Shown: piece after piece, positions 8,451-27,271 of the stretch
Layout: each line of letters opens with the position of its first letter
Position numbering within the stretch: the first letter of the stretch is position 1
DNA from: Planctomycetales bacterium 4572_13
Lineage (GTDB): Bacteria > Planctomycetota > Phycisphaerae > Sedimentisphaerales > Anaerohalosphaeraceae
Length of the DNA stretch: 37,589 nucleotides
Assembly (NCBI GenBank): GCA_002084585.1
Contig: NBLM01000012.1
Span: 1-37,589, forward strand
Direction of reading: 5' to 3'
The notes under the pieces: generated by a model
Told to the model about the DNA's origin: nothing
Seen by the model: only the letters and a program-made list of their open reading frames with translations
The model's database searches: none
Translations under genes and position numbers: made by a program

Positions 8451-8490
8451 AAAGGCCGGTGTTTCTGATCAGAAACACCGGCCTTTTTTG
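8451..8490 (+). terminator. intrinsic terminator of the pilus operon
   Basis: A perfect 36-base palindrome (8451-8486, arms AAAGGCCGGTGTTTCTGA and its complement) ends in a run of T. It lies 22 bases after the secretin stop and ends the plus-strand operon. Because it is symmetrical it could also weakly stop transcription arriving from ileS. Confidence 0.9.
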
Positions 8491-8542
8491 TAAGAGTTCA
8501 AGCTTTAGCTTGTTCTTGACACACTAAAGTGTGAACTCTTAC
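8490..8542. repeat. three-way-junction palindromic element
   Basis: Outer arms GTAAGAGTTCA (8490-8500) and TGAACTCTTAC (8532-8542) enclose two inner hairpins, CAAGCT-TT-AGCTTG and ACACT-AA-AGTGT. The same plan (outer stem or adjoining hairpin pairs) recurs at 11471-11512, 26557-26606 and 27150-27262. The right outer arm contains the ileS stop codon (TTA at 8539-8541 on the plus strand). This looks like a REP/MITE-type short element; mobility is inference. Confidence 0.7.
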
Positions 8543-11391
8543 AATCCCGCCACAACCTCTGCACATCGATCACACAAATCAGAATACTCAGCATTCTGCC
8601 CGACGCTCGAATAATAATACCAGCACCGTTCGCACTTGGGATGTGAACATTTCCCGGCGGACACCTTGAGTACATCGCCCTTTACGATGCTGACCTCGCT
8701 GACAATACACAATGACGCGAATGTTTCGATACCCATATCATTGATAACAGCCAACAATTCATCGTCATCGGTTTCGATGGTGATCGCCGCTTCTTGATTA
8801 CTTTTGATGATCTGTTCATCCCGCAAGCCCTCCAGCGACTTGAGAACCTCATCCCGTAACGCCATAATACGGTCCCACTTAGCCGCATTGGCCGTCGGGT
8901 CAATCACTTTGTCAGCAACCGGCATCGAAACCAGATGCACCGTATCAACATCCTCGCTCTTATATTCAATCGCCGCCCACGCTTCTTCGGCGGTATGAGC
9001 CAACACCGGCGCCAGCATTCGCACCAGTGCATCAAGGATACTGTACATCACGGTCTGTCCGCTGCGGCGACCCACACTGTCGGTCGCGTCGCAATACATC
9101 CGGTCCTTGAGAACATCCATATAGATACTGCTCATCTCAATCGTACAGAAATTATAGATTTTCGTAAACACACGATGAAATGCGAAATTATCATATGCCT
9201 GATGCACCTCAGTAATCAGCGTATTCAACTTTTCCACGGCCCACTGATCGATCAGCGGCATATCCTTATAATCCACCGATATTTCAGCCGGAACAAAACC
9301 GCTAATATTGCTCATCAGATACCGCAGCGTATTGCGAATCTTTCGATACGCATCCTGCAGCCGCCCGATCAGTTCGTCGCTGCACCGCATATCCTCCTGA
9401 TAGTTCACGCTGGACACCCACAGCCGCAGAATATCAGCACCGTATTTTTCCACCTCTTCCAACGCACTGACATAGTTACCCGCCGACTTGGACTGCTTCA
9501 TTCCTTTGTCATCGACAGTAAAGCCGTGCGTCAGCACCGTCTTAAATGGCGGTTTACCTGTGGCCCCCAAAGCGGGCAACAGCGAAAGCTGGAACCAGCC
9601 GCGATGCTGATCGGACCCTTCCAGATACAAATCGACCGGCACCTCATACCCCGCCATTTCGATCACGCTGTGCCAACTGCACCCGGACTCAAACCACACA
9701 TCAAAGATGTTTTCTTCTTTTGTCAAATCGTCCCAGCTAAAGCCATCGGGCAATTGGAAATCGTCGCCGAGGATTTCTTTTGGTGAATCGGTAAACCAGC
9801 AGTTTGACCCTTTTTGCCCAACATACTTTGCGACCGCCATGGCGGACTCTTTCGTCAACAAGGCATCACAGTTGCTATTAATGAATGTAGGAATCGGCAG
9901 CCCCCATGACCGCTGGCGGCTGATACACCAGTCCGGCCGCGATTCCAGCATCCCCTGGATCCGCTTTTGACCCCAATCAGGAATCCACTTAACATCGTCG
10001 ATTTGCTCCAGCGCCATATTCCGCAAGCTCTTATTGCCGAATTTTTCAATGTCCCTGTCCACACCGACAAACCATTGTTCCGTCGCCCGAAAGATCACTG
10101 GCATCTTGCTCCGCCAGCAATGCGGATAACTATGCAGCAGGTCGGCTTCGTGTACCAGTAGCCCTAACTTTCGCAGATGTTCGTTGACTTCGGCGCTTAC
10201 TTTCAAGACACTCTTGCCGCGCAGCCATTCGGGAACGGTCTCATCATAACAACCATTATCCATCACCGGCGAATAGACTGCCAGCCCGTACCGCATTCCC
10301 TCCATATAGTCCTCGGTCCCGTGGCCGGGCGCGATATGGACAATGCCCGTGCCGTCCTCGGTCGTTACATATTCAGCATTGATAGCAAAATACGCATCTC
10401 TGTCCGTCGGATTTTCCTCAATATATGGATGCACATAACGCAACCGTTCAAGTGCGGTTCCCTTAACCGATTCGCTAACCGAATACTGCCCCTCTTCCAG
10501 CCCCGCCGCGGCGACAACCGCTTCAAGCCGTTCGGCGCAGATAATCGATGTGAATTTTGTACCGTCCTTGTCGTATGTCAGGCCGACATACTCCAGCCTA
10601 GGATGCATCGCCACCGCTAAGTTCGCCGCCAGCGTCCACGGTGTAGTCGTCCAGATCATAAAGCAAACTTTGGTGTCGCCTGGGGCCAGTCCCATTTCGC
10701 AAATTTTCGCCGCGCTGTCATCGTCCATCGGAAAATTAACATAAATACTGGACGAGGTAACATCTTCGTATTCGAGTTCCGCATCCGCCAACGCCGTCTC
10801 ACACCCAATCGACCAATGAATCGGCTTGAGCTGCTTATAAACCAGCCCATTACCGACCAACTCGGCGAAAATCTCTAAAATCCCCTGCTCATACTGCGGC
10901 TTCAGCGTCAGATACGGATTCTTAAAATCACCAAACACCCCCAGCGCCTTAAACTGCTTGGTCTGATGCTTGACGAATTTCGAGGCGTATTTCTGGCATT
11001 GTTTGCGTATTTCCGGCTTGGACATCGACTTGGCCCGCTCGCCCAGTTCCGCCATCACCTTGACCTCAATCGGCAGGCCGTGGCAGTCCCAACCCGGTAC
11101 ATACGGCGCCTTGTGGCCAGTCATCGTCTTGTACTTGACGACAAAATCCTTGAGTACCTTGTTAATGACATGGCCCATATGAATATCGCCATTGGCATAC
11201 GGCGGGCCGTCGTGCAGCAGATACAGCGGCGACCCCTCACGGGCGGCGAGTATCTCAGTATAAATATCCCGCTTTTCCCACGCCTTGCGCTGTTGCGGCT
11301 CCCGCTGAGTTAAGTTCGCCTTCATCGCAAAACCCGTCTTTGGCAGGTTCAGCGTACCCCGATATCCCTTTTTCTTGTCCTTATCCGACAT
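8539..11391 (-). CDS. ileS: isoleucyl-tRNA synthetase
   Basis: A 950-residue class I aminoacyl-tRNA synthetase that charges tRNA-Ile in the cytoplasm. The HIGH-type signature appears as PPYANGDIHMGHVINK near residue 65, and VPGWDCHGLPIEVKV follows. The KMSKS loop is present as GMKQSKSAGN at about residue 620. The editing (CP1) domain includes the TTPWTL motif (IWTTTPWTLAANLAVA). The C-terminus ends in a zinc ribbon with CSHPKCERCW and CDRCAEVV, as in the bacterial-type enzyme. AAAGGAT lies about 6 bases before the ATG. It is a single-gene transcription unit, convergent with the pilus operon, and its stop codon lies in a palindromic repeat arm. Confidence 0.98.
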   Translation of the reverse strand: MSDKDKKKGYRGTLNLPKTGFAMKANLTQREPQQRKAWEKRDIYTEILAAREGSPLYLLHDGPPYANGDIHMGHVINKVLKDFVVKYKTMTGHKAPYVPGWDCHGLPIEVKVMAELGERAKSMSKPEIRKQCQKYASKFVKHQTKQFKALGVFGDFKNPYLTLKPQYEQGILEIFAELVGNGLVYKQLKPIHWSIGCETALADAELEYEDVTSSSIYVNFPMDDDSAAKICEMGLAPGDTKVCFMIWTTTPWTLAANLAVAMHPRLEYVGLTYDKDGTKFTSIICAERLEAVVAAAGLEEGQYSVSESVKGTALERLRYVHPYIEENPTDRDAYFAINAEYVTTEDGTGIVHIAPGHGTEDYMEGMRYGLAVYSPVMDNGCYDETVPEWLRGKSVLKVSAEVNEHLRKLGLLVHEADLLHSYPHCWRSKMPVIFRATEQWFVGVDRDIEKFGNKSLRNMALEQIDDVKWIPDWGQKRIQGMLESRPDWCISRQRSWGLPIPTFINSNCDALLTKESAMAVAKYVGQKGSNCWFTDSPKEILGDDFQLPDGFSWDDLTKEENIFDVWFESGCSWHSVIEMAGYEVPVDLYLEGSDQHRGWFQLSLLPALGATGKPPFKTVLTHGFTVDDKGMKQSKSAGNYVSALEEVEKYGADILRLWVSSVNYQEDMRCSDELIGRLQDAYRKIRNTLRYLMSNISGFVPAEISVDYKDMPLIDQWAVEKLNTLITEVHQAYDNFAFHRVFTKIYNFCTIEMSSIYMDVLKDRMYCDATDSVGRRSGQTVMYSILDALVRMLAPVLAHTAEEAWAAIEYKSEDVDTVHLVSMPVADKVIDPTANAAKWDRIMALRDEVLKSLEGLRDEQIIKSNQEAAITIETDDDELLAVINDMGIETFASLCIVSEVSIVKGDVLKVSAGKCSHPKCERCWYYYSSVGQNAEYSDLCDRCAEVVAGL

Positions 11392-11562: not shown

Positions 11563-12540
11563 ATGAGTTTAGAGGCGGAAATCAAGCAAAAGGCCCTCGA
11601 TCTTGGCTTCGATGCGGCGGGCATTACCACAGCTGAGCCGGTGGATGCGGCCCATTCGGAGTATTTCCGAAAATGGCTGGATGACGGATGCGCCGCGGAA
11701 ATGGACTATATGCACCGCAATATCGACAAACGCTTTGATCCGGGCCAATTGCTCAAAGGCGCAAAGTCGATTATCTGCGTGGCCCTGAACTATCGCCCTG
11801 CCACTGATGAACTGCTGGAAAATCCACCTGTCCGCATCGCCCGGTTTGCTCAATACGAAGACTATCACCCCTTCATTAAAGACCGGCTCTTCCAACTGGC
11901 CGAATTCACAAAAGCGGAGCGGCGCGAGCCGCCCGATGGCGACTCAAAACATGCCCGCGCGGATCAAATAAAATTCAAGGCCTGCATCGATTCAGTCCCT
12001 TTGGCCGAACGCGCCTTGGCCCAACGGGCCGGATTGGGTTTCATCGGGCGAAACCGTATGCTCATACACCCTGAACTCGGCAGCCAAATCCTGCTGGGTG
12101 AATTGATGACCACGCTCCAACTTCAGCCGGACGAACCCTTCGATCAAATTTCCTGCGGCGACTGCGGCCGCTGCATCCGCGCCTGCCCGACCGGGGCCTT
12201 GAACTTCGACGGCTCCTTCGATGCCCGCAAGTGCATCAGCTACCAAACCATCGAGGCCCCTACAAAAGCGGAGCAGCCCGATGGCGACTCGAAAGATGCC
12301 CGCGCTGGCAGTTACATCTTCGGCTGCGATGAATGCATTCTCGCCTGTCCGCACGAACTGAACGCTCCGGCACGGAAAAATGCCGATTTTCAATTCCACC
12401 CCGAATGGCAAGACCTGACCCCCGACCAAATCCAAACCATGACCGCCGACGAATTCCAAAAAATCTTCGCCGACTCCGGTTTTATTCGACTGGGTCTCGA
12501 CAGATTAAAAAGAAATGTGCGGGGAAATAGGGTGGGGTAG
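11563..12540 (+). CDS. queG: epoxyqueuosine reductase, with two in-frame palindromic-repeat insertions
   Basis: A 325-residue cobalamin-dependent, iron-sulfur epoxyqueuosine reductase that performs the last step of queuosine synthesis in tRNA. The catalytic-type Asp (about D143) is in KACIDSVPLAERALAQ, followed by AGLGFIGRN. The cluster cysteines are C198-C201-C204-C208 (CGDCGRCIRACPTGAL) and C224, C255, C258, C262 (GCDECILACPHEL). The HEAT-repeat tail of longer QueG proteins is absent, as in many short homologues. Two loops read KAERREPPDGDSKHARA (about 117-133) and KAEQPDGDSKDARA (about 235-248). These are near-identical at DNA level and match an intergenic repeat, so they are insertions (see repeat entries). 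No clear Shine-Dalgarno precedes ATG 11563. Confidence 0.92.
   Translation: MSLEAEIKQKALDLGFDAAGITTAEPVDAAHSEYFRKWLDDGCAAEMDYMHRNIDKRFDPGQLLKGAKSIICVALNYRPATDELLENPPVRIARFAQYEDYHPFIKDRLFQLAEFTKAERREPPDGDSKHARADQIKFKACIDSVPLAERALAQRAGLGFIGRNRMLIHPELGSQILLGELMTTLQLQPDEPFDQISCGDCGRCIRACPTGALNFDGSFDARKCISYQTIEAPTKAEQPDGDSKDARAGSYIFGCDECILACPHELNAPARKNADFQFHPEWQDLTPDQIQTMTADEFQKIFADSGFIRLGLDRLKRNVRGNRVG
11908..11960 (+). repeat. palindromic element inside queG, copy A
   Basis: Starts ACAAAAGCGGAGC, contains the hairpin GCGGC-GCGA-GCCGC (11919-11932), then CCCGATGGCGACTC and ATGCCCGCGC. It adds roughly 15 codons in a surface loop just before the catalytic FKACIDS region, compared with my memory of E. 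coli QueG. It matches copy B except for a 9-base gap and a few substitutions, and it resembles the element at 27150-27262 (shared AAAAGCGG, GNRA-like hairpin loop, CCCGATGG). Confidence 0.75.
12261..12308 (+). repeat. palindromic element inside queG, copy B
   Basis: Starts ACAAAAGCGGAGC and continues GCCCGATGGCGACTC and GATGCCCGCGC, nearly identical to copy A but with 9 bases of the hairpin missing, so the frame is kept. It encodes KAEQPDGDSKDARA between the TIE and FGCDEC motifs of QueG, a linker that varies in the family. Confidence 0.75.
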
Positions 12541-26556: not shown

Positions 26557-26606
26557 GTGGCGCGGGCTTCGGAACCCGTGAATCACGGCCAGGATGGCCG
26601 TGCCAC
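26557..26606. repeat. three-way-junction palindromic element
   Basis: Outer arms GTGGC (26557-26561) and GCCAC (26602-26606) enclose a CGGG-CTTCGGAA-CCCG hairpin and a 7-bp CACGGCC-AGGAT-GGCCGTG hairpin (26584-26602). The layout is like the element at 8490-8542 and resembles GGCACGG...CCGTGCC repeats that I recall from planctomycete genomes. It lies between the divergent MEMO1 and purE genes. Confidence 0.7.
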
Positions 26607-27148: not shown

Positions 27149-27149
27149 A

Positions 27150-27262
27150 CAAAAGCGGCAGGAGCGCAAGCTCCCCGATGGGATTACGAAAACGCAGGCG
27201 CACCTCTAAAACGCAATCGGGCTTACTTGCGCCGCCGCGCTGTTGCGGGCGAGATGCCCGCG
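27150..27262. repeat. composite palindromic element
   Basis: Begins AAAAGCGGCAGGAGCGCAAG, with hairpin GGAGC-GCAA-GCTCC (27161-27174) followed by CCCGATGG, and ends in hairpin GCGGGC-GAGAT-GCCCGC (27245-27261). The first about 50 bases share order and words with the two elements inside queG (AAAAGCGG, GNRA-loop hairpin, CCCGATGG, then an AAAAC/GCGC stretch). It sits directly after purE. Confidence 0.65.
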
Positions 27263-27271
27263 TTCCCAGTG

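Follow-up and report, generated by a model that had tools for sequence, protein, structure and literature searches.

Introduction

Palindromic repeats that code for protein were first known from Rickettsia, and scattered REP examples have been added since. The Rickettsia palindromic elements (RPEs) are about 150 bp long and form several palindromic families. Unrelated conserved genes carry them in frame, and the proteins tolerate the added peptides; about half of those first listed lay in open reading frames (ORFs) (Ogata 2000, 2002, reviewed in PMC10969869). Intragenic REPs tagged with GTAG or CGTC also occur within ORFs, including double insertions in uvrA and uvrB. Their host genes serve DNA repair, tRNA charging (the tRNA synthetases) and tRNA modification, and in two Xanthomonas different REPs occupy about the same site of recB (PMC3733652). 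Two inverted REPs make up the doublet known as a REPIN (PMC3116915), and the REP-associated tyrosine transposases (RAYTs) described to date form genes of their own, with inverted REPs on either side (PMC3116915, PMC2817692).

Here we report repeats of this kind in a genus placed in Phycisphaerae, Planctomycetota, by named records (metagenome-assembled genomes). The starting point was a 37,589-nucleotide stretch of DNA (the window), in which two repeat copies lie inside queG. What is new is the lineage, the finding of several repeat families in the same loops, and a RAYT in frame within a host ORF.

Results

The two repeat segments in queG and the F1 family

The host of both segments is queG (11563-12540, forward strand), encoding an epoxyqueuosine reductase of 325 aa that was identified by orthologue alignment and by its match to the equivalog profile TIGR00276 (264.6 bits vs. 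a cut-off of 200). The eight Fe-S cysteines (198, 201, 204, 208, 224, 255, 258 and 262) and the catalytic Asp143 are invariant across a 13-sequence alignment, so they are intact, as a previous reading of the DNA from its letters (the sequence-only reading) had claimed. Copy A (11908-11960, forward strand, 53 nt) lies in loop 1 of the protein and encodes TKAERREPPDGDSKHARA. Copy B (12262-12305, forward strand, 44 nt) lies in loop 2 and encodes TKAEQPDGDSKDARA. The sequence-only reading had described two near-identical in-frame segments encoding KAERREPPDGDSKHARA and KAEQPDGDSKDARA, and both peptides are indeed present in the 325-aa ORF. Its bounds were right for the first segment, but the end that it gave for the second (12308) was about 3 bases too far. 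The copies share a 35-nt block with 91% identity, and the 9-base in-frame gap reported between them was recovered as 9 nt absent from the hairpin of copy B. The core pattern AAAAGCGG..CCCGATGG occurs three times in the window (copy A, copy B and an element after purE) and was absent from 100 shuffles.

Further genomic copies, which the sequence-only reading had proposed to look for, are abundant. In the window genome (G000), a single 1.81-Mb draft assembly that is 83% complete, copy A gave 37 further matches; the best match has an E value of 2e-9, up to 30 of 30 bases are identical, and many matches form inverted pairs. Comparison of the genomic copies defines the complete element (F1), about 106 bp in length: ACAAAAGCG..GGC-GCRA-GCC..CCGAT, followed by a spacer and a reversed repeat of this sequence. 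Full F1 resembles a REPIN, with two inverted REP hairpins (GCRA loop) around a spacer and a dispersal mainly between genes. With regard to the features of MITEs, it has inverted ends of about 30 bp, and no target-site duplication was evident by eye. The copies read end in ACAAAAGCG (or GCAAAAGCG) rather than in a GTAG or CGTC tag.

The queG copies are singlets that retain the first REP with a portion of the spacer and lack the second arm. In copy A the REP hairpin spans 11915-11935 (forward strand), with the loop GCGA at 11924-11927. Folded in isolation, the two queG copies were no better than shuffles (z -0.4 and -1.3); the evidence for a hairpin is instead that the genomic copies preserve its stem. 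Pairing is retained in 193 of 230 stem-pairing cells over 46 arms, against a shuffle mean of 162 and a maximum of 173. One full genomic F1 copy folded with z -5.2, and the intergenic copy of the window with z -0.55.

This intergenic copy, recognised by the core pattern and by similarity, lies downstream of purE at 27149-27250, where a likeness to the queG segments had already been noticed, and is a full F1. It abuts an arm of a second family, F4 (GCGGGCGAGATGCCCGCGTTCCCA, 27243-27268), the family found in QueG loop 2 of two sister species (G001 and G008) and in addA of the window genome. F4 arms often abut F1 copies elsewhere too (L010, L025, L069), as if repeats landed in or beside repeats. 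A copy of a further family, F5, which flanks the valyl-tRNA synthetase (ValRS) transposase described below, lies at 26557-26606 (86% identity over 50 nt). It overlaps the annotated purE ATG at 26594; the first PurE residues may be repeat-encoded, or the true start may lie downstream. Between a secretin gene and ileS, the window also contains an inverted repeat (TTGTAAGAGTTCA..TGAACTCTTACAA, 8488-8544), and similar AGAGTTCA tracts stand beside F1 copies on other contigs; this is perhaps one more repeat family. At the end of an RsmD-like gene (L016, G000:C8 near 12244), the last residues and the stop codon apparently come from an F1 copy.

QueG loops in orthologues and sister species

The loops of 22 QueG orthologues from other genera of the order are short (8-12 residues in loop 1 and 12-16 in loop 2) and lack the copies, in agreement with the expectation that the loops would be absent elsewhere. 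Within the genus, for which all the genomes used are draft assemblies, loop 2 measures 20-23 residues in six of eight species, and the length of loop 1 varies between 10 and 40. Loops 1 and 2 carry F1 and F1 in G000, F2 and F2 in G007, F1 and F2 in G002, and F3 and F4 in G001, while G008 combines a short loop 1 with F4 in loop 2. All four families, F1 to F4, are dispersed repeats in the genomes of the genus. Neither loop of G006 was assigned to a repeat family, and these loops matched no other sequence. G003 has short native loops, and G005 has a loop 2 of native length and a 17-residue loop 1 to which no repeat was assigned.

In the IleRS tree, G003 and G005 are nested among the species with inserts; species with a native-length loop 2 thus interrupt the inserted ones, and more than one event is needed. 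All inserted species have in common a Tyr before IFGCD in loop 2, which leaves room for one ancestral replacement with later turnover. The alignment also qualifies the idea of simple insertion into loops. Extra residues are present, but in loop 2 the repeat replaced a native segment instead of adding to it. Predicted-structure confidence is lowest over the QueG inserts, although some other stretches are low as well. From these comparisons we read the QueG loops as recurrent landing or turnover sites in the genus.

Other host genes

About 95 copies of F1-F4 were surveyed in stretches around matches ranked by their similarity to the queG inserts, which is not a random sample. In-frame copies were found in leuS, mnmG, polA and a TGS-domain GTPase gene of G002, in mnmE and addA homologues of G001, in addA of the window genome (an F4 copy on contig C63) and in M56 peptidases of G002 and G005. 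Compared with the solved MnmG and AddA structures, and with the LeuRS of relatives, the inserts are extra or divergent sequence. For F2, about 8 of the 31 distinct copies seen lie within such conserved genes. The LeuRS loop after EVDF carries F5 in G009 (L275, G009:C89) and F2 in G002 (L266, G002:C48), and is short in G006 and G008. In the window genome, the queG pair are the only ones of the 46 F1 arms read that lie well inside a conserved gene. Most of the F1 copies in open frames of this genome were set aside, either because the frames looked non-coding or because the copies lay upstream of the real start.

The proposal of a short, coding-tolerant repeat of this lineage is borne out by the different dispersed repeats in the loops of sister species and by the in-frame copies in further conserved genes. 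That of a single mobile element needs amendment: the repeat is short and tolerated in coding sequence, but at least five families are involved, and mobility is suggested by their distribution.

RAYTs and the embedded ValRS transposase

Y1 transposases numbered 12 in G002, 12 in G007 and 9 in G001, all of them repeat-rich genomes; none was found in the repeat-poor G006 or in the incomplete G003. In G008, F4 flanks one RAYT on both sides. The genus RAYT loci read, covering part of the RAYTs and, for F1, a genome 83% complete, included none flanked by F1 or F2, and F3 gave one distant match.

In the window genome, the 1221-aa ValRS ORF holds a whole RAYT in frame in the editing-domain region, with F5 flanks (L263, G000:C15, 15094-15801). 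The ValRS of G009 (L264, G009:C134) likewise contains a complete, F5-flanked RAYT in frame, while that of six other relatives is without it. Among the 161 genomes of the order searched, the same RAYT type was found in frame at the same site in ValRS of 16 more, belonging to family f7 (L279-L294). It was also found in frame in type ISP restriction enzymes of two genomes, at two different positions (L295, G144:C92; L296, G141:C203), and several in-frame repeat peptides accompany the embedded RAYT in L295. Ten carriers were re-searched, some of them incomplete or split over contigs, and a further ValRS above the cut-off was seen in none.

Every one of the 20 embedded RAYTs has retained the two His residues of HUH and the YDH Tyr. 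With dN/dS of 0.08-0.45 for the RAYT part in four pairs, the embedded ValRS RAYT is under purifying selection in the pairs tested. Between G055 and G033 (L280, L283), fourfold-site agreement was 83% in the RAYT vs. 44% in ValRS on both sides, while amino-acid identity was lower in the RAYT than in ValRS. The fourfold-site contrast suggests lateral movement of the RAYT into the same ValRS site, with codon bias as the alternative. The deep part of the RAYT tree is poorly supported and the tree includes two badly aligned outgroups, so we base no claim of host switching on it. Among the papers searched, none joined valyl-tRNA synthetase, a transposase and in-frame insertion.

Discussion

The queG segments are very probably truncated copies of the dispersed, REPIN-like F1 that entered two loops of QueG. 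The basis for this reading is the dispersed copies, the conserved hairpin pairing, the open frame, the absence outside the genus, the unrelated families in the same loops and the other genes with in-frame repeats. The F1 copies would have entered the two loops as partial elements, and would have been kept because the repeat is free of stops in the frame used and the loops tolerate extra residues. That the repeats spread by copying, with RAYTs (Y1/HUH) as the most likely machinery acting in trans, is a suggestion to which we give even chances. Selection would remove the copies that break the frame or the structure, so that the same tolerant loops would be filled repeatedly.

It is possible, though we doubt it, that F1 arrived in queG only once and then recombined into the other loop, or that both copies came in one burst from a source outside the assembly, loop turnover in the genus being due to recombination and not to transposition. 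Among the copies found, the 3' part shared by the two in queG (GCGACTC.AAA.ATGCCCGCGC) has no match beyond this pair, a point whose force is reduced by the missing 17% of the window genome, where a source copy may lie unseen. Loop 2 stays at 23 residues in five species despite their different repeats, which also favours recombination; the different families in the two loops of G002 and G001 speak against it. In G007 both loops carry one family at 93-96% identity, but loop-to-loop copying was rejected as a conclusion from this shared variant, since the variant also occurs elsewhere, in G005.

It would be surprising if the inserts had acquired a function, such as that of a regulated mRNA hairpin or a binding loop in the protein. 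That they persist in frame in several species, and in genes with the related roles of tRNA modification, tRNA charging and DNA repair, fits such use, but insert sequence and family vary between sister species, two species have no repeats in loop 2, and model confidence is low over the inserts. Misjoining of repeats into queG during assembly is more improbable still: repeats are where assemblers err and drafts are used throughout the genus, but independent genomes present the same pattern with different repeats, the frames remain open, and in-frame repeats are found in other genes too. Finally, native lineage-specific extensions that resemble repeats by chance can be dismissed for G000, G001, G002, G007 and G008 and have next to no probability overall. 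Length change is usual in loops and the G006 loops match nothing else, but matches to dispersed copies reach 30 identical bases (E 2e-9), four families lie within the same loops and the core pattern is missing from shuffles.

One enzyme in one genus thus offers a natural series in which the same two loops are either native or occupied by F1, F2, F3 or F4. With this series one can test whether the inserts are neutral passengers, by what route they turn over and what agent moves them. A broader reading, which is speculative and which we consider unlikely as a whole, would place a RAYT in frame within the essential ValRS (and, in another family, within type ISP enzymes), translated with its host, with its catalytic residues kept and moving laterally into the same site. 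This RAYT would serve REP-like repeats that insert, with the frame kept, into loops of QueG, LeuRS and other proteins. Such ORF-preserving mobile DNA would be the coding equivalent of homing elements, but with no splicing. The in-frame ValRS transposase, with purifying selection in the pairs tested and no second ValRS detected, would represent a novel mode of persistence for a transposase gene.

The parallel with RPEs drawn by the sequence-only reading is apt for behaviour and fails for membership. As with RPEs, functionally unrelated conserved genes carry a palindromic repeat in frame (queG and addA here; leuS, mnmG, mnmE, polA and addA in relatives). Unlike RPEs, the in-gene F1 copies are halves of 44-53 nt, and sister species fill the same two loops with different families. 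The host lineage, Planctomycetota, Phycisphaerae, is not Rickettsia and sets F1 apart; F1 behaves as an RPE does, but we do not class it among them. With the intragenic REPs, our repeats share the location within ORFs, the double insertion in one gene and the DNA-repair and tRNA-related hosts. F1 differs from the GTAG- and CGTC-tagged REPs in being a GCRA-loop hairpin with no such end tag, although F3 (GTCAT..CCGG) may be of the CGTC type, and the recurrent occupation seen here involves four families in two loops within a single genus. The REPIN and RAYT systems are matched by full F1, with its two REP hairpins in inverted orientation, and by the RAYTs of the same genomes, one of which has F4 on its flanks. 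Unlike the RAYTs described before, the ValRS-embedded RAYT lies inside one long ORF, between F5 copies in the same orientation.
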